The notes under the pieces: model-generated
What the model saw: only the letters and a program-made list of their open reading frames with translations
What the model was told of the DNA's origin: nothing
The model's database searches: none
Made by a program: the position numbers and the translations under genes
NCBI GenBank assembly: GCA_004144175.1
Contig: SEFT01000009.1
Span: 1-64,000, forward strand
From: Sphingobacteriales bacterium
Lineage (GTDB): Bacteria > Bacteroidota > Bacteroidia > Chitinophagales > Chitinophagaceae
Length of the DNA: 64,000 nucleotides
Reading direction: 5' to 3'
In this document: piece after piece, positions 48 through 15,177 of the stretch
How positions within the stretch are numbered: the stretch's first letter is position 1
Layout of the letters: each line of letters opens with the position of its first letter

Positions 48-380
48 ATGAGCAATCTCACATTTGAACAAGTACCTGAAGCGTTAAGTCGGGTATTAAT
101 CGAATTATCGGAGCTAAGAAGAATTCTAACACATCAGCAACATCCCCAACTACAGCAGGATGAATTGCTGACCATCCAGCAAGCCTCATCCTTACTCAAT
201 CTTTCTGTCGCTACGATCTACGGCTTGGTTAGCCGGGCAGACATTCCACATAGCAAAAAAGGGAAAAGGCTGTATTTCAGTAAGCAAGAGCTATTGGCGT
301 GGGTATACACTGGCCGAAGAAAAACCAGTGTAGATGTGCAGGCAGAGGCAGACAAATACCTAAACAATAAACGCAGGTAG
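48..380 (+). CDS. Helix-turn-helix (excisionase/MerR-like, HTH_17) DNA-binding protein
   Basis: This 110-residue protein has a helix-turn-helix of the excisionase type at about residues 42-92: a 'LLTIQQASSLLNLS' recognition unit, then 'HSKKGKRLYFSKQELLAWV', the usual winged end of HTH_17 proteins. Residues 10-35 are helical and may dimerise. Such proteins sit next to replication or integration genes of Bacteroidota mobile elements and act as excisionase or as regulator of the Rep gene. Its stop codon directly abuts the ATG of the Rep gene, so the two are one transcript. ATG at 48 is the only plausible start. The family is clear; the exact role (excision or copy control) is inferred. Confidence 0.8.
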   Translation: MSNLTFEQVPEALSRVLIELSELRRILTHQQHPQLQQDELLTIQQASSLLNLSVATIYGLVSRADIPHSKKGKRLYFSKQELLAWVYTGRRKTSVDVQAEADKYLNNKRR

Positions 381-1442
381 ATGATGCAGTCTAATAGTTC
401 TGCCCCACACGGGCGGGGGGGTATCTATACATTAGTACAAAACGGGACAGTCATACATGAGAAACCTGCTACAATCCTGCGAGGTCAAGGCTCAGAGATA
501 AGTAGTGACAAGGTGCTAAAAGGGAGAGGTAAACGAAAACTAATCTCGCAGAAAATGTCCCTGTCTTTGGCGGATATAGCACGCGAAAAAGAAAACGATG
601 ATTGGATGAAATCGTTTTACAATACCTACCACTGCCAAAATAGGATATACAGCTTTGAAGGTCGTCTGTATGGTAACTATTGTAAGAATAGACACTGCAC
701 CCTATGCAGCAGCATCCGAAAAGCAGAAATCATAAACAGGTACTATCCCGTCCTTAGCGAGTGGAAGGAGCCCTATTTTGTTACCCTTACGATAAAGGCA
801 TGTAATTCAAAAAAGCTAAAGGATGTAATGAGAAGCGTGCTTCTTGGCTTTCAGCGAATAGTGAGCAAGTATAGAAAACGAAATCAAAGAGATAAGGGCA
901 GTCTTAGACTAGTGGGTATAAAGTCTCTGGAATGTAACTTCAATCCTCAAAGGAAAACATACAACCCGCACCTTCACCTGATAGTACAAAACAAGGAAGT
1001 AGCCGAAGTATTAGTGGCTGAATGGCTTAGCACGTCCAACAAAGGACATACATCTCCGAAAGCTCAGAACATACGGAAAGTTGATGACCTGGAGCACGAC
1101 TTAATAGAAACTATAAAATACGGCAGTAAGATATTTACCGAGCCAGATGTCGAAAAAAAGGCAAAAATTAAAAATAGCGGTGAAATTTACGCTAGAGCGC
1201 TCTACAACATTTTCAATGCCATGAAGGGACTCAGGATATTTGATCGGTTTGGCTTTGATTTACCTAAAACGAAACATAAAATGCGATTCCCTAAAGTTGT
1301 TGTTGATTATGCCGAATGGGTATTTGACCCAACTTATCAGGATTGGCTCAATACAGAAAACGAGTTAAATCTCACCGCATTTCATGCCGATCCAGCCCTA
1401 TTATACTTGTTGGAAAACAAAGTTGACAAACACCTGGAATAA
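381..1442 (+). CDS. Rolling-circle replication initiator (HUH endonuclease) Rep protein
   Basis: This 353-residue protein shows the three motifs of HUH rolling-circle Rep proteins: a 'FVTLTI' strand (about 133-138), the metal-binding 'HLHL' HUH motif (H197, H199) and a tyrosine in 'KYGSK' (Y247) suited to be the nicking residue. A Cys cluster at 101-109 ('YCKNRHCTLC') resembles the zinc-binding region of such Reps. The protein would nick one strand at an origin and drive replication or mobilisation. It starts directly after the HTH gene. The first ~45 residues include a run of seven G bases (415-421) and look poorly conserved, so a later start is possible. No relaxase, coupling protein or integrase is visible, so this may be the end of an integrated small replicon whose remainder lies to the left. 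Confidence 0.82.
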   Translation: MMQSNSSAPHGRGGIYTLVQNGTVIHEKPATILRGQGSEISSDKVLKGRGKRKLISQKMSLSLADIAREKENDDWMKSFYNTYHCQNRIYSFEGRLYGNYCKNRHCTLCSSIRKAEIINRYYPVLSEWKEPYFVTLTIKACNSKKLKDVMRSVLLGFQRIVSKYRKRNQRDKGSLRLVGIKSLECNFNPQRKTYNPHLHLIVQNKEVAEVLVAEWLSTSNKGHTSPKAQNIRKVDDLEHDLIETIKYGSKIFTEPDVEKKAKIKNSGEIYARALYNIFNAMKGLRIFDRFGFDLPKTKHKMRFPKVVVDYAEWVFDPTYQDWLNTENELNLTAFHADPALLYLLENKVDKHLE

Positions 1443-1600: not shown

Positions 1601-3181
1601 ATGGCGAAGGCAAAGAAAGAAGTGGCCGAAGAAGCGCTCGAGAAGAAACTCTGGAAGGCGGCCGACAAGCTGCGCAAGAATATGGACGCTGCTGAGTACA
1701 AGCACGTAGTCCTCGGCCTCATATTCCTCAAGTATATATCCGACGCATTTGAAGAGCTGTACGATAAGCTGAAGGAAGGCAAAGGACAATACGAAGGTGC
1801 CGACCCCGAAGACAAGAACGAATACATAGCCGAAAAGGTGTTCTACGTACCACCCTCGGCACGCTGGAAGTGGATACAGGGCCGCGCCAAGCTGCCCACC
1901 ATAGGCAAGGACGTAGACGATGCGATGGATGCCATCGAGAAGGACAATACCTCGCTCCGCGGTGTGCTGCCCAAGGTATATGCACAGGAGAAGCTCGATA
2001 AGCAAAGCCTGGGCGGACTCATTGACATGGTGAGCACCTCCACCCTGGGCACCAAAGAAGCACAAAGCAAAGACCTCCTGGGGCAGGTATTCGAGTACTT
2101 CCTCGGCGAGTTTGCGCTGGCAGAGGGCAAGAAGGGCGGACAGTTCTATACCCCCGCCTGCGTGGTGCGCCTGCTGGTAGAGATGCTGGAGCCTTACGAG
2201 GGCCGCGTCTTCGACCCCTGCTGCGGCTCGGGTGGTATGTTTGTGCAGAGCGAGAAGTTTATCGAAGCCCACCAGGACCATTACAAAAAGCAGAAAGGCG
2301 CAAAGCTCAACATCGACCCCAAAGACCGCATATCCATATACGGGCAGGAAAGCAACCAGACCACCTGGCGCCTTGCCCGCATGAACCTGGCAATACGCGG
2401 TATAGATGCCAGCAATGTAAAATGGAACAACGAGGGCAGCTTCCTCAACGATGCGCATAAAGACCTGAAGGCCGACTATATCATTGCCAACCCTCCCTTT
2501 AACGACAGCGACTGGAGCGGCGACCTGCTGCAGGGCGATGCCCGCTGGAGTGTATTGGGCAATAAGCTGGTGCCGCCTGCGGGCAATGCCAACTATGCCT
2601 GGATACAGCACTTCCTCTACCACCTGTCGCCTACGGGCATGGCGGGCTTTGTACTGGCCAAGGGCTCCCTTACTACCAAAACTAATAATGAAGGCGAGAT
2701 ACGCAAGGCGCTGATAGAGAAAGACCTGATAGACTGTATTGTGAACCTGCCCACCAAGCTATTCCTAAATACGCAGATACCTGCATGCCTGTGGTTTATG
2801 CGCCGCAGCAAACAGCAGCGCAGGGGCGAGATGCTGTTTATAGATGCCCGCAACCACGGCTACCTGCTCAACCGCAAGAACCGCGACCTCTCTGACGACG
2901 ACATAAACCTGATAGCCGGCACCTACCACAACTGGCGCACCGGCGAAGGCGAGTATAATGACATACAGGGCTTCTGCAAATCTGCCACCATAGAAGAGGT
3001 GCGCAACCTGGGCTATGCCCTTACACCGGGCCGTTATATTGGCCTGGCTGACGATGAGGATGATTTCAATTTTGCAGAGCGCCTTGCAGCTTTGAAGACG
3101 CAGTTGGAAGAGCAGATGGCTGAGGAGGAGGTATTGAATAAAAGCATCAGGGAAAACTTAGCGAAAGTTCAACTACAATAA
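1601..3181 (+). CDS. hsdM: Type I restriction-modification DNA methyltransferase subunit HsdM
   Basis: This is the N6-adenine methyltransferase subunit of a type I restriction-modification enzyme (526 aa, normal length). An N-terminal HsdM helical domain (about 10-150) precedes the catalytic domain, with SAM-binding motif I 'DPCCGSGG' (205-212) and catalytic motif 'NPPF' (297-300). The C-terminal ~50 residues form a coiled coil that would contact HsdS. It is the first gene of an operon continuing through hsdS to hsdR. A 158-base spacer separates it from rep; a TACCTTTA sequence near 1560 resembles a Bacteroidota -7 box. Codon use is GC-rich, unlike the next four genes. Identity is certain. 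Confidence 0.96.
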
Positions 3182-3197
3182 CTAAAGACAAGAACCT

Positions 3198-4151
3198 ATG
3201 CCTTATATCTTTTTAAGAATTGCTTGGATGAAGCACTATCAGGGAGTGACTGAGGACGACATTCCCTCTGGTGCTGGTTCATATGTAGAAGTGAATAAGG
3301 ACGGAAGGGAAGTTTATAACTTTTTTCCTATTCAGGGAAAATACTACGGCTATGCGAGAATCCAAGATGGCCGAAGTTTGCACATCGAACGGATTGGCGC
3401 GAAACCCGCAGTTCCATTTATTGACAATGTAACGGTAGTTGTTTTTGCGAAGAATCCCGAAACCGGTGGCCAGTATATTGTAGGCTGGTATAAAAATGCC
3501 AAGCTCAATCGCCAGGTTCAGAAGCTAGCACATAGTACCTTTCCAAAAGGTAAAAACTATCAAATCATTGCTGATATAGCAAATAGCCACCTTATACCCG
3601 CGGATGACAGGATATATACAGTAGAAGGACCTGGTCAAACGAATGCTTGGTATGCCGAAGAATATGAAGATGCTGCTTATTTCCAAAGGCTGGAAGATTA
3701 CATGGCAGACCCTGAAGGATATATAATAAGGAAGGCACGAAAAATAGCTATTGGTCGTGCGTGGCAGCCCAATGTAGAGTTGCGGAAAAAGATTGAAGAA
3801 AAGGCGATGGAATTTGTAGAAAGCTACTATAAGGTACGCGACTACGAAGTCGATGTAGTTCACAAGGAAAACTATGGCTGGGATTTGGAGGCGACTTTGA
3901 ACAGCAAAACCTTGTTGTTAGAAGTAAAAGGTCTATCAGGGCCATTTAACGGAATAGAGTTGACGCCAAACGAATACACTAATAGTAAAACCAATAGAAA
4001 GCACTATAGAATATGTGTGGTATCGTATGCGCTCGACGACAATAAGAGGAAGCTGGAAATATTCTATTGGAGCCAAAATGAATGGATCAATAATGCCGGC
4101 AATGTATTAAAAGTAGATGAAATTACTTCAGCACGGTTTACGAAGAAATAA
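3198..4151 (+). CDS. DUF3883 domain protein (PD-(D/E)xK nuclease-like) inside the type I RM operon
   Basis: This 317-residue protein has a C-terminal DUF3883 domain (about 200-300), recognisable from 'GWDLEA' (D229) and 'LEVKG' (E242, K244). That is the D...ExK arrangement of PD-(D/E)xK nucleases, followed by the typical 'ELTPNEY'. The N-terminal ~120 residues form a separate beta-rich domain ('YIVGWYKNAKLNRQ') that I do not recognise. DUF3883 domains occur widely in restriction and defence proteins. The gene begins 16 bases after hsdM and ends 6 bases before the next gene, so it is in the operon. It is clearly more AT-rich than hsdM, which suggests it joined the operon separately. A DNA-cleaving or DNA-binding role is inferred from the motif only. 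Confidence 0.78.
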   Translation: MPYIFLRIAWMKHYQGVTEDDIPSGAGSYVEVNKDGREVYNFFPIQGKYYGYARIQDGRSLHIERIGAKPAVPFIDNVTVVVFAKNPETGGQYIVGWYKNAKLNRQVQKLAHSTFPKGKNYQIIADIANSHLIPADDRIYTVEGPGQTNAWYAEEYEDAAYFQRLEDYMADPEGYIIRKARKIAIGRAWQPNVELRKKIEEKAMEFVESYYKVRDYEVDVVHKENYGWDLEATLNSKTLLLEVKGLSGPFNGIELTPNEYTNSKTNRKHYRICVVSYALDDNKRKLEIFYWSQNEWINNAGNVLKVDEITSARFTKK

Positions 4152-4157
4152 CCCACT

Positions 4158-4427
4158 ATGGCAGAAATACATCGCAGCAGAACAATCCGTCCGTCAACAA
4201 GAGCGAAACAGTCAAGCAGTTATAAAGTGGATGTACGTTCTGTCATGGCTACTGATTCGCTGATCGTAACGATAAAACATACTAATCCTATGCAGAGAAC
4301 AAAGAAATTTTGCTTTGATGGTGCGCAACCTGTTGGACGGGACAGTATACACTTTAAAGTAAATGAATTTGGCAGCGGTTACGAAATTATATGGTACAGC
4401 GATTTAACACCACACGAAATCTGTTAA
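4158..4427 (+). CDS. Small uncharacterised protein in the type I RM operon
   Basis: This 89-residue protein matches no family I recognise. The first ~22 residues are rich in Arg/Ser/Thr and probably disordered; the rest looks like a small beta fold ('VRSVMATDSLIVTIKH', 'HFKVNEFGSGYEIIWY'). It is translated in tight sequence: 6 bases after the DUF3883 gene, and its TAA is immediately followed by the next ATG. The packing argues that it is real and made together with its neighbours, perhaps as a partner of the downstream GIY-YIG-like protein. Base composition is AT-rich like the other inserted genes. No function can be given. Confidence 0.6.
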   Translation: MAEIHRSRTIRPSTRAKQSSSYKVDVRSVMATDSLIVTIKHTNPMQRTKKFCFDGAQPVGRDSIHFKVNEFGSGYEIIWYSDLTPHEIC

Positions 4428-4952
4428 ATGCCAGCTTGGAAGAACTATAATAAACTGGAGATAAGCGGCAGCATGCTGGTGCCGGGGTTCTCTATATACC
4501 TGATGGAAGTGCAAAGGGGCGATGAACTGCCCTACTATTATGTAGGCATGACTGGCGACCCGCACTATCCTTCTGCGCGTGCCGCTTTTCATCGTATTGC
4601 CGGGCACCTGGAGCTGAGAGAAGCCTCCACACAGAACCAGCTTCATAAGGCTATGCGCGACAAGATGAATGTAACAGATGAAGACATAGCGAACTTAAGA
4701 ATAACGATGCATCATTTCCCTGTAGATGGGTTTGAAAAGTACCAGGGTGATTTGGGAACGATCAACAAAACCTGCGATGCTTACACAAGCTATAAAGCAA
4801 AGCAGCAAAAAGTAAGCAGGCTGGAAGACACTATCATATACCGGCTAAAGCAAAAGTTGGGAGCAAGAGCTCTGAATAAAACGGAAGGAGCAGACTATGA
4901 CCTGAATGGCTACCAGCAAATATTGGATGATGTTTTAAAGATTGTAAAATGA
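4428..4952 (+). CDS. GIY-YIG-like putative nuclease in the type I RM operon
   Basis: This 174-residue protein carries a plausible GIY-YIG nuclease signature. A 'SIYLMEV' strand (GIY equivalent, about 22-28) is followed by 'YYYVGMTGD' (YIG equivalent, 36-44), then Arg/His positions 'ARAAFHRIAGH' (50-60), and a late 'RLEDTII' (E133) followed by 'ALN' (N150), where the family places its catalytic Glu and Asn. It starts directly after the stop of the small gene and overlaps hsdS by four bases (ATGA), so its translation is coupled to the specificity subunit. A GIY-YIG protein within a type I RM operon is not the standard layout. The assignment is by motif reading; a structural comparison would settle it. 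Confidence 0.6.
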   Translation: MPAWKNYNKLEISGSMLVPGFSIYLMEVQRGDELPYYYVGMTGDPHYPSARAAFHRIAGHLELREASTQNQLHKAMRDKMNVTDEDIANLRITMHHFPVDGFEKYQGDLGTINKTCDAYTSYKAKQQKVSRLEDTIIYRLKQKLGARALNKTEGADYDLNGYQQILDDVLKIVK

Positions 4953-6142
4953 TTGGGTGGAAAGAGTATAAGTTAAAAGATTTAGTTACCCGCATAACGA
5001 AAGGAACCACACCTTCTACCCTTGGAGGGAGATTTCTTGACAACGGAATAAACTTTATAAAGTCCGAAGCCGTAAGTTATGATGGACGAATTGATAAATC
5101 ATGTTTTGTATTTATAGATGAGGAGACACATCAAAAGCTAAAACGGTCACAACTTGAAAAGGATGACATACTTTTCTCTATGGCGGGCATCTTCTTAGGT
5201 AAGAATGCTCTTGTTACAGAAGATCTGCTGCCTGCGAACACAAACCAAGCATTGGCAATCATTAGGCTAAATCAACAAAAAGCATTACCAAAGTATGTTC
5301 ACTACTTCTTAAGACAACCTTCGGTTATTGATTTGGTCAATAATATGTCAGGACAATCCGCTCAACCGAATATTAATATGGAGGAAATCGGAAGTATAGA
5401 TGTTCGATTGCCATCTCCAGCCGAACAGCAAGCCATAGCCTCCATACTCTCCAGCCTTGATGATAAAATAGACCTGCTGCACCGGCAGAACAAAACACTA
5501 GAGCAACTCGCCGAAACGCTTTTCAGGCGGTGGTTTGTAGAGGAGGCGGAGGAGGGATGGGAGGAGAAAAGCCTGTACGATGCAATAAAATTAGTCGGCG
5601 GCGGCACTCCAAAAACATCGATTCCAGAGTATTGGGACGGAAACATAAATTGGCTGGCAGGTGGAGATATTGCTACTAATCACAAGAGCTTTATAATAAC
5701 CGCACAAAAGAATATTACAGAAGAGGGGTTAAGTAGCAGCTCTGCTAAATTACTACCCAAGTATGCAACTGTCATTTCAGCCAGAGGGACGGTAGGCAAG
5801 TATTGTCTACTATCTCAGCCTATGGCTTTTAGCCAATCAAATTATGGGATATTGCCGACGTATAAAAACTGTTACTTCTTTACATATTTATTAGTAGCCC
5901 ATTCTGTTGACGAACTACAAGCTGCGGCATACGGAAGCGTATTCGACACCATTACAACAGACACGTTTAAGGAACAGAAGGTGCGGTTACCATCGGAAGA
6001 AGTAATTCTGAACTTTGAACATACAGTTGCAATTTACTTTCATAAAATGCTTCACAATCAAAACCAAATCCGCACCCTCACCCAATTACGCGATACGTTG
6101 CTGCCCAAGCTGATGAGCGGAGAGGTGCGGGTGAAAATGTAA
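4949..6142 (+). CDS. hsdS: Type I restriction-modification specificity subunit HsdS
   Basis: HsdS (397 aa) recognises the bipartite target of the enzyme. Two target-recognition domains (about 1-150 and 208-340) are each followed by a conserved helical spacer: 'LPSPAEQQAIASILSSLDD' with the 'KIDLLHRQNKTLEQLAETLF' helix after the first, and 'QIRTLTQLRDTLLPKLMSG' at the end. The recognition domains are AT-rich whereas the spacers are GC-rich like hsdM and hsdR, as expected if TRDs are exchanged by recombination at conserved spacers. The start codon overlaps the preceding stop (ATGA). Both half-subunits appear complete. The target sequence cannot be predicted by eye. Confidence 0.95.
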   Translation: MIGWKEYKLKDLVTRITKGTTPSTLGGRFLDNGINFIKSEAVSYDGRIDKSCFVFIDEETHQKLKRSQLEKDDILFSMAGIFLGKNALVTEDLLPANTNQALAIIRLNQQKALPKYVHYFLRQPSVIDLVNNMSGQSAQPNINMEEIGSIDVRLPSPAEQQAIASILSSLDDKIDLLHRQNKTLEQLAETLFRRWFVEEAEEGWEEKSLYDAIKLVGGGTPKTSIPEYWDGNINWLAGGDIATNHKSFIITAQKNITEEGLSSSSAKLLPKYATVISARGTVGKYCLLSQPMAFSQSNYGILPTYKNCYFFTYLLVAHSVDELQAAAYGSVFDTITTDTFKEQKVRLPSEEVILNFEHTVAIYFHKMLHNQNQIRTLTQLRDTLLPKLMSGEVRVKM

Positions 6143-6152
6143 AAACAAAACT

Positions 6153-6935
6153 ATGCGATCCATATGTGAGAGAATGAAATTCGAAACGATGGCTTTCTGG
6201 TATTACCTATCTGACGTTTTCAAGTACAGAATAAATGCGTCCGAGATAGGTATCACAAACCATCTAGTTTACGTAATAACCTCGTTTTATGGAGGCCGGC
6301 TACCCGGCCTAGAAGTATACGCATGGAACGCTCCGTATGAACCCACACGTGGTGCTGATATCGATCTATTTATTCAACTTCCCAATGGTCGGTATCGATG
6401 GTTTATGCTGCAGGCGAAAGTTTTGGACTACAATGGGAAGTATAAAGATATTGAACACTGGGCTCCTGATGCACAGTACCGGAAGCTTATTACGTGGGCA
6501 TCGGCCGTCGCCGCAACACCGTATTACCTTTTATATAACGGCTACACAATAAATAGCGGCACTGGCAGCGATGATTTGGGTTTATCCTGCGTTCACGCCC
6601 GAAGAATTGAACGCCTCCGCCACCAACAAAGTCGGATGGCCGTTATTCCTCACGGAATGTCTATTCTTACATTTGATATGTTGTTCAGGGAAAACATGTT
6701 TCCTTTTTACTATCTTTTTTGTAGGACGCCTTCACGTTTTTTCCATTCCATAAGAATGGAACTAGATGGAACTGATATTTATCGCGGCTACCCGTATATC
6801 AGAGTCGACGGTTCGGAAGAACCACCAACCGACGATGGCGGTGCAAAGCCTTCATCGGATGTTAATGACAGTGGAATTTATTCGAGGTATCGCATATTAG
6901 TCCCTTTCGACAAAAACTCAAATCTTAATTCATGA
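6153..6935 (+). CDS. DUF6615-like putative PD-(D/E)xK nuclease
   Basis: This 260-residue protein resembles DUF6615 in its N-terminal half: an early acidic helix ('SEIGITNHLVY', E31), 'RGADIDLFI' (D69/D71) and 'FMLQAKVL' (Q87-A-K89). This is the spacing of a PD-(D/E)xK core with Gln in place of the usual Glu. The C-terminal ~60 residues are polar and probably flexible. It lies 10 bases after hsdS and overlaps the P-loop gene by four bases (ATGA), so the two are probably a functional pair. ATGs at codons 8 and 13 are alternative starts. Composition is AT-rich. The DUF6615 match is from memory of its motif; the biochemical role is unknown. Confidence 0.55.
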   Translation: MRSICERMKFETMAFWYYLSDVFKYRINASEIGITNHLVYVITSFYGGRLPGLEVYAWNAPYEPTRGADIDLFIQLPNGRYRWFMLQAKVLDYNGKYKDIEHWAPDAQYRKLITWASAVAATPYYLLYNGYTINSGTGSDDLGLSCVHARRIERLRHQQSRMAVIPHGMSILTFDMLFRENMFPFYYLFCRTPSRFFHSIRMELDGTDIYRGYPYIRVDGSEEPPTDDGGAKPSSDVNDSGIYSRYRILVPFDKNSNLNS

Positions 6936-7342
6936 AAGTTATAGGACTAAGCGGAAGGGCGGGTTGCGGAAAGACTCTGACTTTGAACATAGTATACCAC
7001 GAATTGAAGAAAAGGGGCTATGAACCAGTTTCTGGTATGTTGGCAGATCTTAACAATGGTGACTTCCTTGATATTTTATATAATGGAATACAGACTATCG
7101 GTATCGTAACGCAAGGCGACTGGCCAGCTGGACCTTACAGTCTGCATGGATATCTGGAAAGGCTCAGAGCAAATGGATGCTTTAAGGCAATCTGCGCTTG
7201 CAGAACCAAGGGCGGTACCAAGAACTCTGTCAAACAGTATCCTGACCATACTATTCTGCGAAAAACGATTGTAGAAGGTACTGTTGAAGATGAAAATATT
7301 GCAAACCGTCACGACTTAAGTTTAATTTTGGAAAAGGCCTGA
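6932..7342 (+). CDS. Small P-loop NTPase-like protein in the type I RM operon
   Basis: This 136-residue protein opens with a clear nucleotide-binding P-loop, 'GRAGCGKT' (residues 8-15), after a hydrophobic strand. That arrangement is found in nucleoside/nucleotide kinases and small ATPases. A later strand 'TIGIVTQGDW' could supply a Walker-B-like Asp. It is shorter than standard kinases and no lid region is obvious. It overlaps the DUF6615-like gene (ATGA) and ends five bases before hsdR, so it is the last inserted gene before the motor subunit. It may be an NTP-dependent switch or partner of the preceding putative nuclease; that is inference. Confidence 0.6.
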   Translation: MKVIGLSGRAGCGKTLTLNIVYHELKKRGYEPVSGMLADLNNGDFLDILYNGIQTIGIVTQGDWPAGPYSLHGYLERLRANGCFKAICACRTKGGTKNSVKQYPDHTILRKTIVEGTVEDENIANRHDLSLILEKA

Positions 7343-7347
7343 CTTTT

Positions 7348-10300
7348 ATGCGTCCAATTACCGAATCCCATATTGAAGAATTAGCCATCAACCTGCTGGA
7401 GGGCCTCGGCTGGCAATATCTGCATGGTGCTGTCATTGCACCTGGTGCAGAGGCGCAGGAGCGCGAGAGCTATGAGGAGGTACTGCTGACGGGCAGGTTG
7501 CGCAGGGCAGTCGCCGCCATCAATCCCCATATACCGCAGGATGCACAGGAGCAGGCCATACAAAAGGTACTGCGCATCTATTCGCCTGAGCTGCTCTACA
7601 ACAATGAGCAGTTCCACGAGCTGCTGATAGAGAAGGTGCCGATGCCTTATCACGATAACGGATACGAGCGGGCGCACGAAGTCAGTCTGATGGATTTTGA
7701 GCACCCCGAGCTGAACGAGTTCCTGGTAGTGAACCAATACACCATAATAGAGAATGGCCAAAACAAAAGGCCCGATCTGCTGCTCTTCGTCAACGGCATA
7801 CCGCTGGTGGTCATCGAGCTAAAGAATGCAGCCAATGAACACGCCACCCTGCGCAAAGCCTACGAGCAGCTACAGACCTACAAGCACAGCATTAAGTCGC
7901 TGTTTACCTACAATGCCATCTGCATCATCAGCGATGGCCACGAGTGCCGCGCAGGTAGCATATCGGCAGGCTTCAGCCGCTTCATGACCTGGAAGTCGGC
8001 CGACGGCGAACGTGAAGCATCGCGCTTCGTACCCCAGCTCGAGACCATGATAAAAGGCATGCTGCCACCCACCATCCTGCTCGACCTGGTGCGCAACTTC
8101 ATCGTATTTGAAAAGACCAAGAAAGAAGACGATAAAGGGCTCACACAAATAGAGACGGTAAAAAAGCTGGCCGCCTACCACCAGTACTACGCGGTCAATA
8201 AGGCCATACAAAGCACGCTGAAAGCAGCCGACAAGGGCGGCGACCGAAAAGGCGGTGTGGTATGGCATACACAGGGCAGCGGCAAGTCGCTATCGATGGT
8301 GTTCTACACCGGTAAGCTGGTGCAGCGGCTCAATAATCCTACCGTAGTAGTCATCACCGACCGCAACGACCTCGACGAGCAGCTCTTCGACACCTTTGCT
8401 TCCTCGCGCAGCTTATTAAGGCAAGACCCCATACAGGCCCGCGACCGCGACCACCTGAAAGAGCTGTTGAAAGTGGCCAGCGGGGGAATCGTATTTACCA
8501 CCATACAGAAGTTTGTACCCGATGGCGGCAAGAACATCTACGATCAGCTATCCGATAGAACGAACATCGTTGTAATAGCCGACGAGGCCCACCGTACCCA
8601 ATACGGCTTCGAGGCGAAGCTGATAGACGAAAAAGACAAAGAGACCAAAGAAGTAATAGGCAAGCGCATAGCCTACGGTTTTGCCAAGTACATGCGCGAT
8701 GCCCTGCCCAATGCAACCTACATAGGCTTCACAGGCACGCCCATAGAAAGCACCGACGCCAGCACGCCGCAGGTATTCGGCCAGTATGTAGACGTGTACG
8801 ATATAAGCCAAGCGGTAGCCGATGGCGCCACCGTACGCATCTACTACGAAAGCAGGCTGGCAAAAGTAAACCTGACCGAAGAAGGCAGGCAGCTGATAGA
8901 AGAATTTGACAAAGAGCTGGAGGCCGACGAAGAGGTAACAGAGAAGCAAAGAGCCAAAGCCAAGTGGAGCAAGTTGGAAGCCATCATAGGCCACCCCGAG
9001 CGGCTTGAGAATCTTGCACGAGACATCGTGAACCACTTTGAAGCGAGACAGCAGGTATTTGAAGGCAAGGTAATGATCGTAGCCATGAGTCGCAGGATAG
9101 CCGCCGAGCTATACAAGCACATCATAACCCTGAGGCCCGAATGGCACAGCGATGAGCTGGGTAAGGGCACTATAAAAGTGGTAATGACCACCAGCAGCGA
9201 CGATGGCCCTGCCATGCAAAAGCACCATACTACGAAGCAGCAGCGCAAGATGCTGGCCGAGCGTATGAAAGACGATGCTGACGCCCTAAAGCTGGTAATA
9301 GTACGCGACATGTGGCTCACAGGCTTCGATGCGCCCAGCATGCATACGCTGTATGTAGATAAGCCTATGCGCGGCCACAACCTGATGCAGGCGATAGCAA
9401 GGGTGAACCGTGTATTTAAAGACAAAACGGGCGGACTGGTAGTAGACTACCTGGGCATTGCCACCGACCTGAAAAAAGCACTATCCTTCTACTCCGACGC
9501 AGGCGGCAAAGGCGACCCGACAGAAAAGCTGGAGCAGGCAGTAGAAGCAATGGTAGAAAAGCTGGAAGTAGTACGCCAGTTCTTCTGCGAAGAAAGCAAG
9601 ACAAGAACCGAGATACTGGCTGCCGAGCCGGAGGCATACTACAGCAATGAAGACCTGCTGAAGTTTAATTACAGGCGTTTCTTCCGGGTAAGTCCGCAGG
9701 AGAAGCTATCAATCATACTACAGACAGAAGAACATATATTGGGGCTGGACGATGGTAAGAACAGGTTTATTCGTGAAGTCACTTTATTGAGTCAGGCATT
9801 TGCGTTGGTCATTCCGCACGAGTCGGCGATGGAGATAAAAGATGAAGTGGCATTCTTCCAGGCCGTTAAAGCAAGACTGTCGAAGTTTGAGAGCAATGGC
9901 AATGGACGGACGGACGAAGAAATAGAAACAGCCATCAAGCGGCTGGTAGACCAGGCCGTCACCAGCGATAAAGTAATAGACATCTTCGACGCAGCGGGCA
10001 TTAAGAAGCCCGATATCTCGATCCTATCCGACGAATTCTTGTTGGAGGTAAAAGGCATGAAGCACCAGAATTTGGCGCTGGAACTACTTAAGAAAATACT
10101 GAACGATGAAATAAAGATCCGGTCGAAAACGAATATCGTAAAAGGCAAGGCGCTATTGGCCATGCTGGAATCATCTATCAAGAAATATCAGAACAATCTA
10201 CTAAGTACAGCCGAGATCATACAAGAGCTTATCAATCTTGCCAAAGACGTAAAAGACGCCGACCGTCGTGGTGCTGCCTTAGGTCTTACCGAAGACGAAC

Positions 10301-10572
10301 TGGCATTCTACGATGCGCTGGAAGTAAACGACAGCGCCGTGCAAGTACTCGGCGACGATCAGCTAAGAGAAATAGCCCGTGAGATAGCAGGGAAGGTTAA
10401 AACAAATGCTACTATCGACTGGACGATTCGCGAGAGTGCGCGTGCCCGCCTGATGGTCATCGTGCGTCGTACGCTATCCAAATACGGCTATCCACCCGAC
10501 AAGCAGCCCAAAGCGATTGAGACCGTATTGAAACAAGCAGAGGCTCTGGCTGACTTTTGGGTAAGCGTCTAA
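7348..10572 (+). CDS. hsdR: Type I restriction enzyme motor/endonuclease subunit HsdR
   Basis: HsdR (1074 aa, normal length) translocates and cleaves DNA. The N-terminal nuclease domain contains 'RPDLLLF' (141-147) and 'VIELK' (E157, K159), the PD-ExK residues. The SF2 helicase motor follows with Walker A 'HTQGSGKS' (307-314), DEAH box (412-415), 'GFTGTP' motif III near 460 and later motifs up to about 690. The C-terminal ~300 residues are the helical HsdM/HsdS-binding part. It starts five bases after the P-loop gene. Composition is GC-rich like hsdM. No frameshift or lost catalytic motif is seen, so the restriction enzyme should be active. Confidence 0.96.
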
Positions 10573-10745
10573 CGATATCTAAAAGCACAGTCTTTCTAAC
10601 TGTGTATAATTGAACTTGAACTACTTAGTAACTGGGTAAACGATATAGGTGATACGGCATCGAGAATTCATAGGCCTGCCGAATACTGATGATTTGTTCC
10701 TTATTTGTACCTGAAATGCATAAAACCCTTATCAATAAAGGAAAG

Positions 10746-10768
10746 TTACTTTCTGTATCGGGAAGTAG
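10746..10768. repeat. Imperfect copy of the TTACTTTC palindromic motif
   Basis: The sequence begins TTACTTTC, continues TGTATCG and ends GGAAGTAG. It matches the perfect palindrome at 21300-21322 in its first 15 bases and in part of the right arm. The two copies bracket the peptide-export locus. Confidence 0.6.
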
Positions 10769-11012
10769 CCGTATTACTAAAATACACGATTCTACAGCAT
10801 TGGCGCGGCTTTTAGCGGATCTTCATTTGCCGATAGCCCATCGATTATTGCCGTTATTTGCCGTTTTTTAGTTCCTATGTTGGTTACTATTAAAAAAGTA
10901 GGGGACTTTATGGTTACAAGGTGAGATAACCACGCAAAGATGATGGTAGATAATGGAAGATGATGCTAAATGATGGGAAACTCACTTTCTGTACATCAAA
11001 ACTCAAACCAAC

Positions 11013-11114
11013 ATGAGCAGCAATTTGCGAATCCCCAAAGTATGCCAATTTTGTAAGATAAACTGCAGTTTATCCCACTTCATTAACGTGGACATATCGG
11101 TTACTATTTATTGA
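11013..11114 (+). pseudogene. Truncated start of a mobile-element zinc-ribbon/HTH gene
   Basis: ATG at 11013 opens 33 codons beginning 'MSSNLRIPKVCQFCK'. This looks like the N-terminus, with its CxxC knuckle, of a small DNA-binding protein family that accompanies tyrosine recombinases in Bacteroidota mobile elements. After about 18 residues the resemblance is lost and the frame stops, so only the 5' end of the gene remains. A half copy of the TTACTTTC motif lies about 30 bases upstream. The family recognition is from memory of the N-terminal motif. Confidence 0.45.
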
Positions 11115-11292
11115 GCTTTTAAACCATTTGCGATAATGGCCCTTGTCTATGTACAGGTATATCTAGAGAAGATTTCAGGCTGTCTGCTCTTTCGGGCACA
11201 AACAATATTGAACCCTGTTGCTGATTGCCCGTTTGGAATCATCAGCCGTATCCGAAGTGTGCGGAGTTACCTCTGCTCAATAGCATCATAGG

Positions 11293-11493
11293 TCACAATA
11301 CCGCTTTATACCTTCCTGTATGCTCCCAGCAAGCATTTTTCGCCGGATAAAGCTGAAAGTTACTTGCACCATCAATACCCAGCAGATTGTCCTTCCTCAG
11401 CGTTGTACCTCTTTCTGTGAAATGTTTTACGTTCATTTCACCCTTTACAGATAACACTAAGCTTAATGTGCCGTCGTCCTGCCAGCTGTAACA
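11293..11493 (-). pseudogene. Possible coding fragment of unknown family
   Basis: On the minus strand an open stretch of ~66 codons without a credible start reads like protein ('SWQDDGTLSLVLSVKGEMNV', later 'NFQLYPAKNACWEHTG') and ends at TGA (11293-11295). An in-frame stop lies just upstream at 11494-11496. It may be the 3' remnant of a decayed gene; I do not recognise the family. Confidence 0.25.
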
Positions 11494-11663
11494 TTAGACG
11501 ATTCATTTTTGAAGCAGATACGTCTCTGCCTGTAACAAGACTTATCGGGACTCAAGAACTACTTGCAGACTACAGAGGACTACCCAAGGTTATAGGGTGG
11601 ATGACGGGGCTGATTAACTTCTGCCAAACACAATAATCATCAGGAGTATAGTTATTACAAGAG

Positions 11664-12974
11664 CTAATTATTTAACACTCCTTTAATTGGCATAACCAAC
11701 CTTTCAAGAAGGGTCATATCTTCTGTGACAATATCTGCTATTCCTACCATTTCTGGCCTTAACGTAATTTGCTTTCCTGGTATTAGGTCAATCTTCTTAA
11801 ACTCTACTTTAATTTTATACATGCTATTTTCGGGAATAAGACTTATAGACTTCACTGTTCCTGTAAGTTGCCCATATTCTCGATATGGATAATTATCAAG
11901 TTTGATTTTCACTGTTTGTCCTAACTGCACCTTTCCAAACCCATTTGCCGGCGCTGACATTATGCCAATGAAACTACTATCCCGTGGAACTATTGCAACG
12001 AGCGCTTCTTCAGCTTTTATATACTTGTCAATATGTATATCACCAAGGTAAATTACCCTCCCGTTTCTAGGCGCGATGATAACCTGCCCATCTTCCCAAT
12101 GCCGAAGCTCATTCTCCAACTTCTGAATACTAGCATTAATTTCATTACTGAGCTGACGCTCCTGACTTAACCTAGAATGCTTTATCTCAGCAATATCCTT
12201 AGATATCATGCATATGTCACCTCTATGTTGGGTTAGCAATTTTCGTAGATTACTAACTTCCATTTGCTTTTGATAGAACAAATCCTCTTCATGTAGATAT
12301 TCGAATTTTGAAATTACCTTATCAAGATAAAGTTTGTGATTAGCCTCAAATCTCATTTTTGCGTTCACCTCTTCATTTTTAGCTATAGCCAGTTGACTGT
12401 TAGCTATTTCAATAAGCTCACCAAGATATTTCTTACGATTCTCAAGTTCGTCCTCTTGCATATAAATAGCATTATCCTTTCTATTGTTTAATAGAATCTG
12501 ACAGTTTCTAATTAGGTCATTGTATGTTGGTTGCATACTACCCAATAAAATTGTGTCATTGAAACTAAGGTTTGAACCAATACCACTTTCACCTAGAACC
12601 AATCCTCTTGCCTCTGCCACGACACTTTTAAGAATACCAAGTTGAACTCTTTCGTGGGTGGGATTAATACGCATTAGGACTTCATCTGAATTAACAATCG
12701 AGTAGTCTTTCTTGAAAATTGTCTTAATTCTTCCGTTTATTGGCGAAATGATCTTAAGCAAAGGCTTTTCAGTTGTTATTACGATTGACCCTGTGCTACT
12801 GTCTGGATACTTAATTAAACTTGCCAAAAGCAAGAAGCCAACAAAGATGGACAACAGCAATGTTATACCCCAACGAGTAGTCCAAGAAGGTATCTTTCCA
12901 AGAATATCCCGAACATGCTCGCTATGTTCTTCTCTTGCTTGTTCGTATTCTATAGATCTAGTTTCCAAGTTCAA
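11664..12974 (-). CDS. HlyD-family periplasmic adaptor of a bacteriocin-type exporter
   Basis: This 436-residue membrane-fusion protein links the inner-membrane exporter to an outer-membrane channel. It has a short cytoplasmic tail ending 'LGKIPSWTTRWG', one membrane segment (about 36-55), a first half-lipoyl motif ('IISPINGRIKTIF'), a long periplasmic coiled coil (about 150-290), the second half-lipoyl motif ('VIIAPRNGRVIYLGD') and a beta-barrel domain. The start is taken as TTG at 12974 because no ATG lies near the N-terminus and an in-frame stop lies just upstream; this gives a 17-base overlap with the exporter gene. It is the last gene of the minus-strand unit. No TolC-like outer-membrane gene is in the window. 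Confidence 0.92.
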   Translation of the reverse strand: MNLETRSIEYEQAREEHSEHVRDILGKIPSWTTRWGITLLLSIFVGFLLLASLIKYPDSSTGSIVITTEKPLLKIISPINGRIKTIFKKDYSIVNSDEVLMRINPTHERVQLGILKSVVAEARGLVLGESGIGSNLSFNDTILLGSMQPTYNDLIRNCQILLNNRKDNAIYMQEDELENRKKYLGELIEIANSQLAIAKNEEVNAKMRFEANHKLYLDKVISKFEYLHEEDLFYQKQMEVSNLRKLLTQHRGDICMISKDIAEIKHSRLSQERQLSNEINASIQKLENELRHWEDGQVIIAPRNGRVIYLGDIHIDKYIKAEEALVAIVPRDSSFIGIMSAPANGFGKVQLGQTVKIKLDNYPYREYGQLTGTVKSISLIPENSMYKIKVEFKKIDLIPGKQITLRPEMVGIADIVTEDMTLLERLVMPIKGVLNN

Positions 12975-15177
12975 GTTGATTTTTTATTAGTGAATAATAC
13001 AGCCCACGTTTGGGAATTAACTCTGAATGGGTACCTTCTTCAACTATCCGCCCATCATTCATAACTATAATATTATCTGCATTAACGACAGTACTAAGGC
13101 GATGGGCTACTACTACTACTGTCCTCTTTTCAGAAAACTGCGCCAAGTTGTTTATAATTGCTTTTTCATTATTGGCATCTAAGGCAGATGTAGCCTCATC
13201 AAGAAATAAATACGATGGATCTTTATACGCTGCACGCGCAATCAATATTCTCTGTTTCTGTCCAGTACTTAGATTGAGACCTGAAGCGCCAATTCGGGTT
13301 TGATAGCCTCTAGGCAAATCTGCAATAAGCTGACCTATATTGGCAATAGCTGCTGACTGGTGGACTCTATTCACGTCAATTAAGCCACTTTTTTCCGACT
13401 CTGATATATTCTTAATTATTGTGTCGGAAAAAATGTGGCCTTCTTGCATAACACATGCGCAGAGAGATCTCCATTGATCTGGATTTATTGTAGAAAGATT
13501 TAACTCTCCCACCTTTATTTCTCCTTGGCTAGGGTTATAGAAACGAAGTAATAATTTTAAAAGTGTAGTTTTTCCACATCCACTTGCACCAACAATTGCA
13601 GTTGTTTTACCCTCTTGTATCGTACATGTTATGTTTTTTAAAACTAGTGGACTTTTTTCTGTGCCATATCTAAATGAGACATTGTTTAGCCTAATTGATT
13701 TAGAGGAGGGGATTTCTTGCAATGGAACTTCATCTTGCCCATCTGATTCGGATCTTTTTTGATGTATTTCATGAATGCGTTTGAGACTTAAGTGAGCATC
13801 TTGTGCAACTTGGAAAAACGAAACCAACCCATTAATCGGCGAACTCAATTGTCCGATAATAAACTGGACTGACAACATAGTTCCCAAGCTTATTTGCCCG
13901 TCAATAACCATTTTAGCGGACATAAAGGTGATTATAGCATTCTTTATTTGATCAATAAACTCAGCTCCTTCGCCCTGTACTTGCGATATTGACAAACTTT
14001 TAGTTGATATCTTATATAACCGAGCCTGTAATGCCTCCCATTCCCATCTCCTACGTTTTGCAGAACCGTTAAGTTTTATTTCTTGAATACCAGTGATAAT
14101 TTGAATGAGGCTGTTTTGGTTTCCTGCAGCTTGGTCAAACATTTTAAAGTCTATTTCTGCTCGCTTTTTGAGGAAAAGAGCATTCCAAACGATATACAAT
14201 GCAGATGCTATTAAGAAAACTATTAAAATAGCTACGCTGTAATAGCATAATACAATACTAAATATCACAATATTTAGTATTGAGAATAATGCATTTAAAG
14301 AGCTTGTAGATATGAAATTTTGGATTCTATTATGATCTTGGATTCTTTGCATTAAATCACCAATATTCTTAGAATCAAAGTATCCAATAGGCAGCTTCAT
14401 CAATTTGATAATGAATACAGAAACCAGCTTTATATTAATCCTTGATGAAACAAACAGGAGTATCCAATTTCTTATAATGTCCACGCACAGTAAAGAAGCA
14501 TATAATGTCAGTTGAGCAAATAAAATTAGGTAGATGAAGTTAATATTACCATAATCGACACCTTTATCAACAATTGCTTGAGTCAAGAAGGGTAATATCA
14601 TCTGAACTAAACTGCCTATGAGAAGACCGCAAAGAATTTGAATAAAATATCTTTTATAAGGTCTCATATATGAGAGCAGACTTAGCAGAGTTACCTTGCT
14701 GCTTTCTGTGGTTTTGGCATCTATGTCATGAAATTCTGGAAGAGTTTCAATACCCATTACAATACCTTCCTGCTGGCTATCATACTTCAGCCCAAGCCAT
14801 CCATCTAAGAACTCCTTTTCACTGTATGTAATTAAACCATATCCCGGATCTGCTACTTTAACATAAGTCTTGTCGCGGCGACGAATAATGTCATATACAA
14901 TTATAAAATGCCTTTGCTTCCAATATATAATTGCAGGAAGTGGCACGTCATCTTTCAAAACTTGGAACTTGCATGAGAAAACAAGCGTCTGAAGACCGAA
15001 CGTTTCAGCCGCCTCTGCCAACCCGCCTAAACTTGTTCCAGTAACATTCAAATGGGCCCGTTCACTAATTATATCATGAGCTATTGTTTTACCATAGTGC
15101 TTACAGATCATTCTTAGACACGCAACACCGCAGTCCATTTGATCGTATTGTTTATAGAAAGGGAATGGTCTTTTCAT
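12958..15177 (-). CDS. Peptidase-containing ABC transporter (C39 peptidase, PCAT) for a double-glycine-leader peptide
   Basis: This 739-residue exporter removes the leader of a GG-type precursor and exports the core peptide. The N-terminal C39 peptidase (1-125) shows 'QMDCGVAC' (catalytic C16), H90 in 'QRHFIIVYD' and D110 in 'VADPGYG'. A six-helix transmembrane domain (about 165-440) is followed by the ATPase domain (about 500-735) with 'GASGCGKT', signature 'LSTGQKQR' and Walker B 'LFLDEATSALD'. All catalytic residues are present. It starts 11 bases after the TPR lipoprotein gene and overlaps the HlyD gene. The likely substrate is the GG-leader protein encoded at 19351 on the opposite strand of this locus. 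Confidence 0.95.
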   Translation of the reverse strand: MKRPFPFYKQYDQMDCGVACLRMICKHYGKTIAHDIISERAHLNVTGTSLGGLAEAAETFGLQTLVFSCKFQVLKDDVPLPAIIYWKQRHFIIVYDIIRRRDKTYVKVADPGYGLITYSEKEFLDGWLGLKYDSQQEGIVMGIETLPEFHDIDAKTTESSKVTLLSLLSYMRPYKRYFIQILCGLLIGSLVQMILPFLTQAIVDKGVDYGNINFIYLILFAQLTLYASLLCVDIIRNWILLFVSSRINIKLVSVFIIKLMKLPIGYFDSKNIGDLMQRIQDHNRIQNFISTSSLNALFSILNIVIFSIVLCYYSVAILIVFLIASALYIVWNALFLKKRAEIDFKMFDQAAGNQNSLIQIITGIQEIKLNGSAKRRRWEWEALQARLYKISTKSLSISQVQGEGAEFIDQIKNAIITFMSAKMVIDGQISLGTMLSVQFIIGQLSSPINGLVSFFQVAQDAHLSLKRIHEIHQKRSESDGQDEVPLQEIPSSKSIRLNNVSFRYGTEKSPLVLKNITCTIQEGKTTAIVGASGCGKTTLLKLLLRFYNPSQGEIKVGELNLSTINPDQWRSLCACVMQEGHIFSDTIIKNISESEKSGLIDVNRVHQSAAIANIGQLIADLPRGYQTRIGASGLNLSTGQKQRILIARAAYKDPSYLFLDEATSALDANNEKAIINNLAQFSEKRTVVVVAHRLSTVVNADNIIVMNDGRIVEEGTHSELIPKRGLYYSLIKNQLELGN

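Follow-up and report, generated by a model that had tools for sequence, protein, structure and literature searches.

Organisation of the operon

The stretch of DNA analysed here (the window; positions 1 to 64,000 of contig SEFT01000009.1 of a Sphingobacteriales bacterium, GenBank assembly GCA_004144175.1) is the left end of a contig of 172,875 bases, whose start is window position 1, and belongs to a genome of 4.34 Mb. At positions 1601-10572 it carries a type I restriction-modification operon in which five additional genes are embedded between hsdM, hsdS and hsdR. A previous reading of the sequence (the original prediction) had described these five genes as lying between intact hsd genes with minute spacers or overlaps. 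Indeed, all eight open reading frames (ORFs) were found intact at these positions on the + strand, in the order hsdM, NOV_C, u89, GIY, hsdS, DUF6615, P-loop and hsdR, and the seven junctions in gene order measure 16, 6, 0, -4, 10, -4 and 5 bases. The additional genes, hereafter cargo, occupy the hsdM/hsdS junction (slot 1) and the hsdS/hsdR junction (slot 2):

1601..3181, + strand: hsdM, type I adenine methyltransferase (Pfam HsdM_N and N6_Mtase, 4.8e-105; NPPF motif)
3198..4151, + strand: NOV_C/DUF3883 protein, slot 1 cargo, with reader-like N-domain and predicted PD-(D/E)XK NOV_C domain (Pfam NOV_C 2.6e-10; conserved motif; structural model)
4158..4427, + strand: u89, a protein of 89 amino acids, slot 1 cargo (probable homologue of 88 amino acids in the sibling operon L058)
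4428..4952, + strand: GIY-YIG-like nuclease gene (predicted), slot 1 cargo (motif residues kept in six relatives)
4949..6142, + strand: hsdS, specificity subunit with two target-recognition domains (Pfam Methylase_S 7.5e-37 in two stretches; PADLOC 9.9e-105)
6153..6935, + strand: DUF6615 protein, slot 2 cargo (Pfam 2.7e-6; D69, Q87, A88 and K89 invariant in 4/4 sequences)
6932..7342, + strand: small P-loop nucleoside triphosphatase of 136 amino acids, slot 2 cargo (GRAGCGKT; the family recurs beside hsdR and a type ISP gene)
7348..10572, + strand: hsdR, restriction/translocation subunit (Pfam HSDR_N, SWI2_SNF2 and T1RH-like_C; GSGKS, DEAH and D-x(13)-ELK)

With hsdM, hsdS and hsdR intact and together, the operon is a complete, conventional type I restriction-modification system. 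The contig has one hsdS, and no second Methylase_S match was found elsewhere in the genome. Judging from the spacing alone, all eight genes would be read as a single transcript. The base composition is mosaic: the GC content is 0.54 for hsdM and 0.52 for hsdR and 0.40-0.46 for hsdS and the five extra genes, and the GC content at third codon positions is 0.70, 0.64 and 0.34-0.51, respectively. Hence, hsdS belongs to the variable part of the operon together with the cargo, and the contrast between the GC-rich hsdM and hsdR and the interior of lower GC content suggests that a stable backbone encloses an interior which has been exchanged.

The claim that three of the five extra proteins carry nuclease-like motifs and one a P-loop is correct at the level of motifs (NOV_C, DUF6615 and GIY-like; GRAGCGKT). 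The GIY-like, 89-amino-acid and P-loop proteins have no match above the Pfam cut-off, and four of the five proteins are without a model in PADLOC 2.0.0. Sequence searches of the PDB, which covered four of the five proteins (u89 was not searched), returned chance matches or none.

Sibling operons keep the backbone and differ in cargo

Relatives of HsdR are common, being present in 97/198 genomes. Twenty-six HsdR loci (L numbers denote loci) were fetched, of which 16 were usable, i.e. had hsdM, hsdS and hsdR in order on one contig. Together with L081, L082, L084 and L086, which were recruited by the search with the P-loop protein, they form a sample of 20 relatives. Ten of the 26 loci were left out: L059/L114, in which the contig begins within the cargo and a Schlafen-type gene precedes hsdR; L070, which is without an hsdM-like gene; L071, L075, L076, L077, L116 and L117, which are cut by contig ends; and L118 and L119, whose HsdR is 28-29% identical, L119 also having a gene for 158 amino acids between hsdS and hsdR. 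L060, L073 and L115 were kept despite an hsdM or hsdR cut by the contig end, as was L072 despite its short hsdM. Seven weaker HsdR matches with an assigned locus were left out of the operon sample.

Slot 1 is filled in 12 of the 16 usable operons and slot 2 in 15. Where a slot is empty, the flanking genes overlap, by 7-8 bases at the hsdM/hsdS junction (L063, L069, L086) and by 4 bases at the hsdS/hsdR junction (L074), and thus the cargo sits exactly at the junctions. The 57 cargo proteins, 52 from 19 relatives and five from the window, fall into 35 phmmer clusters. The identities of HsdM and HsdR rise together (rho 0.75; 15 operons, 105 pairs). Despite HsdR proteins that are 82-88% identical, the pairs L063/L065, L065/L067 and L063/L081 have no cargo in common. 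The foreign genes at the two junctions, which are absent or different in the siblings, are therefore genes embedded in a type I operon.

The slots of the siblings contain genes of the YhcG, Fic, RhuM, PIN, Schlafen AlbA_2, Abi_C, GmrSD and HepT-like types as well as ImmA-like peptidase genes, PtuB with an AAA ATPase and a PsyrA-like gene with a helicase gene. Slot 2 of L081 holds seven ORFs, including an AAA ATPase gene followed by a PtuB-like gene (PADLOC 2.8e-104), the P-loop gene and a helicase gene followed by a PsyrA-like gene (1.6e-80). We take the two pairs to be Septu-like (ATPase and PtuB) and PsyrTA-like (helicase and PsyrA), the PADLOC run having covered the PtuB-like and PsyrA-like members. 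In L082, YhcG occupies slot 1, whereas slot 2 is filled by the P-loop gene together with Abi_C, GIY, GmrSD and ImmA-like genes. Genes of the GmrSD type were also present in slot 2 of L069 and before hsdR in L077. Moreover, L065 (4647-6785) and L082 (13749-16176) have a slot 2 pair in common, consisting of a RelE-like gene (112/113 amino acids; by eye) and an ImmA-like peptidase gene (363/362 amino acids), which indicates that some cargo moves as small cassettes. In slot 1 of L064 (10175-10843), an in-frame fusion joins half an HsdS to a second C-terminal tail of HsdM, likely a scar of recombination between hsdM and hsdS.

The original prediction suggested that the five genes may form a joint system and proposed a survey of their co-occurrence within hsdMSR operons. 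The full set does not recur in any of the 20 relatives and was seen in this genome alone. Among these relatives, the NOV_C and DUF6615 types are absent (0 each), the GIY type occurs once (L082) and a probable relative of u89 once (L058). The P-loop gene is present in 5/20, four of which had been recruited by that very gene, and in 1/16 operons found by HsdR. The nearest backbones are those of L058 and L082 (HsdM 79% and HsdR 73% identical to the window). Of the window's cargo, L058 has no more than the probable relative of u89, and L082 no more than the P-loop and GIY genes. Furthermore, in a tblastn-like search of 298 genomes of the order, own included, matches were obtained in two genomes for DUF6615, four for P-loop, three each for GIY and NOV_C and one for u89, and none of the 297 other genomes matched more than one of the five proteins. 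In viral contigs searched for DUF6615, u89 and the P-loop protein, no relatives were found.

The NOV_C protein

The NOV_C protein contains the motif D229-x(12)-E242-V-K244, which is conserved in its relatives and comprises the residues of a PD-(D/E)XK nuclease domain. The structural model has a mean predicted local distance difference test score (pLDDT) of 83.7 and a predicted template modelling score (pTM) of 0.56, which leaves the relative placement of the domains uncertain. The C-domain appears to be Hjc-like: compared with PDB structures, one part of the model matched Hjc resolvases, with a probability of up to 1.00 (Hjc 1gef, E-value of 0.035). Weak matches were 2p5d (0.41), 1wmm (0.33) and YTH entries (probability of at most 0.23), and no E-value was below 0.001. 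The model thereby weakly resembles PH1033, MJECL36 and YTH domains, the former two being, as we assume, EVE domains. Pfam does not recognise the N-domain as EVE, and an EVE domain suspected by eye at the N-end of the relative in L105 was rejected, as none was found by Pfam. The N-domain is also paired with an HNH domain (L092, Pfam 1.1e-6; L106, by eye) and with another nuclease-like C-domain (L109 and L110, by eye; L109 without Pfam match), and it occurs without a nuclease domain in L107, before a Macro-domain gene, and in L108, before a helicase gene. We consider it probable that the protein is a type IV (modification-dependent) restriction enzyme complete in itself, with a reader-like N-domain and a predicted nuclease domain. 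DUF3883 has been called a novel restriction endonuclease domain (PMC3710099).

Twenty-one plasmid records match the NOV_C protein, and six of them cover at least 80% of it. No type I genes were detected in the five opened plasmid loci of these 21, also not by comparison with the Hsd proteins of the window; type II genes lie in one locus and HamA is nearby in another. Likewise, no HsdM-, HsdS- or HsdR-like genes surround the relatives in 15/15 viral-contig loci. On four viral contigs (L099, L100, L104, L111), the NOV_C-type gene stands directly before a tail tape-measure gene (Pfam TMP_3 in L100 and L104; a sub-threshold tail match in L099), and a relative of the GIY-like gene in L122 adjoins a tape-measure-like gene (by eye). 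It is possible that this site is a prophage hotspot for defence genes.

The P-loop family

Eleven distinct loci of the P-loop family were obtained, i.e. the window and ten others, four to five of the latter being contigs found in the search of the order. In six loci (window, L081, L082, L084, L086, L087) the gene lies between hsdS and hsdR, and in four it directly precedes hsdR, at a distance of 5 bases in the window, 10 in L084, 66 in L086 and -4 in L087. In L085 (1/11) it is located 12 bases before a type ISP gene, whose product of 1644 amino acids comprises Mrr_cat_2, helicase, ISP_coupler, methylase and Type_ISP_C domains. A DUF900 hydrolase gene accompanies it in L083 (10 bases apart) and L079 (by eye). 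L083, L085 and L087 come from one genome. No restriction gene was seen in L078 and L080, the latter beside a transposase, and three neighbours of each had no PADLOC match.

Ten aligned members share 18 invariant positions, including G8, G13, K14, the G62-D63 pair, C83 and C88. The model is well defined (pLDDT 91.2, pTM 0.87); Foldseek against the PDB gave no E-value below 0.001, the best being 0.019 at a probability of 0.25, so that a P-loop fold and nothing further can be assigned. The family has no model in Pfam, PADLOC, NCBIfam or PHROGs (weak E-values of 0.024-0.051 only), no relatives were found in the plasmids and phages searched, and a literature search at the level of titles returned nothing on such a gene. 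The genomic contexts suggest that the family is a restriction-linked nucleotide sensor. As a tentative extension, it may be a new family of small nucleotide sensors dedicated to DNA-translocating restriction enzymes, which would serve type I as well as type ISP systems and be passed on as a slot 2 cassette. Such a sensor would read the nucleotide state of the infected cell and gate the motor (the HsdR or type ISP chain) or a cotranscribed nuclease.

The DUF6615, GIY-like and u89 proteins

The DUF6615 protein carries residues of the PD-(D/E)XK type, D ... (D/E/Q)-x-K, in the form of D69-x(17)-Q87-A-K89, and is predicted to be nuclease-like; we take D-x(17)-QAK to be an Mrr-like variant of the motif. 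There were no type I genes near its relatives at the three opened loci (L018, L093, L113). A search with PF20320 in 296 genomes of the phylum gave one match and was insensitive, the window's own DUF6615 gene being missed, and no mention of DUF6615 by name was found in the literature searched. In L084 (9345-9968), a protein of 207 amino acids with D...ELK and no Pfam match is encoded between hsdS and the P-loop gene, where the window has DUF6615.

The GIY-like protein has the Y-x-G-x-T second motif (YVGMT) and the conserved R, H and E of GIY-YIG nucleases (R56, H60 and E133), common to all six aligned relatives, and is a predicted nuclease. Three of its seven distinct loci are type I operons, namely those of the window, of L082 and of L094, the last of which is a Thioclava plasmid and has the order hsdM-hsdS-GIY-hsdR. 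Elsewhere, it lies by Fic/HTH genes (HTH, helix-turn-helix; L024), by TOTE-type genes (L025) or in a prophage (L122); in L096 it adjoins a gene for 563 amino acids with a sub-threshold HSDR_N_2 match, and L097 shares the left part of L096.

The possibility that u89 is a unique or spurious gene was rejected, as the sibling operon L058 has a counterpart of 88 amino acids in the corresponding slot, first noticed by eye (BLASTP of the pair, E 9e-5). The score of the pair was reached by 1/5000 shuffles and was the highest among about 2,480 similarly sized ORFs, a number over which chance might produce it; the common slot and size make homology probable. A profile built from both proteins matched its own two members alone and was uninformative, and no plasmid relatives of either were found.

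Surroundings of the operon

Two genes lie immediately upstream:

48..380, + strand: excisionase-like HTH gene (HTH_17; TIGR01764; Pfam 9.6e-14; NCBIfam excise 33.3 bits, cut-off 28.8)
381..1442, + strand: Rep_1 replication protein gene (Pfam Rep_1 39.8 bits, cut-off 33.2; single copy in the genome)

Because of these genes, the Rep_1 protein being presumably HUH-type, the operon is probably carried on a mobile element. Downstream of the operon, the next genes follow after about 1.1 kb without a long ORF (10573-11663), a stretch in which an element border may lie. The next two genes (11664-15177, - strand) resemble, by eye from their translations, an HlyD-type adaptor and a bacteriocin-exporting C39-peptidase ABC (ATP-binding cassette) exporter.

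Two probable receptacles for separate defence genes

Most probably, the locus encodes a complete type I enzyme, and its operon has a receptacle at each of the two junctions, hsdM/hsdS and hsdS/hsdR, into which separate defence genes are taken up and in which they are exchanged. This explanation is built on the gene order and motifs, on the siblings that keep hsdM, hsdS and hsdR with other cargo, and on the relatives of NOV_C and DUF6615 that live without type I genes. The type I enzyme would cut DNA without its own methyl mark, and the extra genes would lack promoters of their own and be driven by the operon. To judge from its families, the cargo may add layers against phages that escape type I cleavage and thereby cover blind spots. 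In slot 1, the type IV-like NOV_C nuclease would cut modified phage DNA, next to the putative GIY-YIG-like nuclease and the 89-amino-acid protein; slot 2 would contribute the nuclease-like DUF6615 protein and the small P-loop protein directly before hsdR, and the remaining cargo may consist of separate nucleases or of guards. The genes would function independently, singly or in neighbouring pairs, and not as part of a five-part machine.

Several observations weigh against this explanation. Close operons (L063/L067 and L061/L087; HsdR 90-93% identical) do have some cargo in common, at least one cargo protein is shared in 32/105 operon pairs, and there is a weak correlation between the identity of HsdR and the sharing of cargo (rho 0.25, p 0.011), which argues that cargo is not swapped freely. 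In addition, the P-loop (6/11 loci) and GIY (3/7) genes are inside type I operons too frequently for mere passengers, L082 having both, and L058, whose corresponding slot has a probable homologue of u89, also speaks for some link to the operon.

It is also conceivable, albeit rather unlikely, that the type I enzyme or the P-loop protein restrains one or more toxic cargo nucleases, which are freed when a phage inhibitor blocks the enzyme. PrrC in a type IC operon works in this way (PMC3874165; PMC12707154), toxin-like cargo (Fic, PIN, HepT-like, Abi_C) is frequent in the sibling operons, and the P-loop gene adjoins hsdR. However, Pfam and PADLOC detect no PrrC/HEPN-like domain among the five proteins, and relatives of NOV_C and DUF6615 are maintained where there are no type I genes, so the type I enzyme is not needed for their tolerance. 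Even less probable is a mosaic of passengers that recombination has piled up at a mobile element and that play no selected part in defence, some of the genes perhaps being inactive. The rarity and patchiness of the cargo, the excisionase-like and Rep_1 genes and the scar in L064 would fit, but the five frames are open, the motif residues are kept, there is almost no spacer DNA, and the slots of the siblings carry recognised defence genes. Finally, a single machine formed by the type I enzyme and all five accessory proteins is highly improbable and was rejected since the set does not recur, in the 20 related operons or in the other 297 genomes, and since the opened NOV_C and DUF6615 relatives lack type I genes, although all eight genes are tightly packed and the P-loop and GIY genes, found together outside the window in L082, are partial exceptions to this scatter. 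Of the composite system originally predicted, the packing of defence-like genes in a complete type I operon thus holds, whereas the joint action of the five is not supported.

Relation to known systems and significance

Defence genes embedded in type I operons are already known, and the window operon is an unusually loaded case. The anticodon nuclease PrrC, an ABC-HEPN toxin, is embedded in the type IC operon EcoprrI (PMC3710099), where an extra gene in an hsdMSR operon likewise adds a second defence layer. In contrast to this single ABC-HEPN gene, the window operon has five extra genes spread over two junctions, and Pfam identifies none of them as HEPN-like; nor did Pfam, PADLOC or NCBIfam give a match to an ABC-HEPN anticodon nuclease among the five. 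DarTG2, described together with RptR, is located between hsdS and hsdR, a site called a potential recombination hotspot for defence systems (PMC12255303) and the same receptacle as slot 2. There, however, a toxin-antitoxin pair with an upstream repressor is present, and the portion of the paper considered describes no cargo between hsdM and hsdS (PMC12255303). Candidate defence genes nested inside other defence systems have been proposed by 'guilt-by-embedding' (a 2024 preprint by Payne et al., as cited by both PMC12255303 and PMC12988326), and the cargo described here is nested likewise. The coupling of immunity and toxin genes has also been described (PMC3506569).

Among type IV enzymes, EVE-PD(D/E)XK and EVE-HNH proteins combine a reader domain with exchangeable nuclease domains, and some are encoded near type I operons (PMC7641849). 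The NOV_C protein resembles them in joining a putative reader domain to exchangeable nuclease domains but differs in that its N-domain is not EVE by Pfam and the fold likeness is weak. For EVE proteins beside HsdR/M/S operons, the same argument of a blind spot, i.e. modified phage DNA, has been made (PMC7641849). The P-loop relative 12 bases before a type ISP gene in L085 links the family to enzymes of the LlaGI kind (PMC4666363), whereas the window enzyme is a three-subunit type I enzyme.

The present analysis adds a detailed two-slot picture of this family of operons, with the P-loop and NOV_C proteins as candidates. In one family of type I operons of the Bacteroidota, as many as eight extra genes lie in two fixed receptacles, among them genes of the Septu-like, PsyrTA-like and GmrSD types. 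Since recognisable defence genes occupy the same slots, u89, the P-loop family, DUF6615 and the putative NOV_C reader-nuclease become concrete defence candidates, and the pairing of the P-loop protein with a DNA translocase provides a specific, testable hypothesis.

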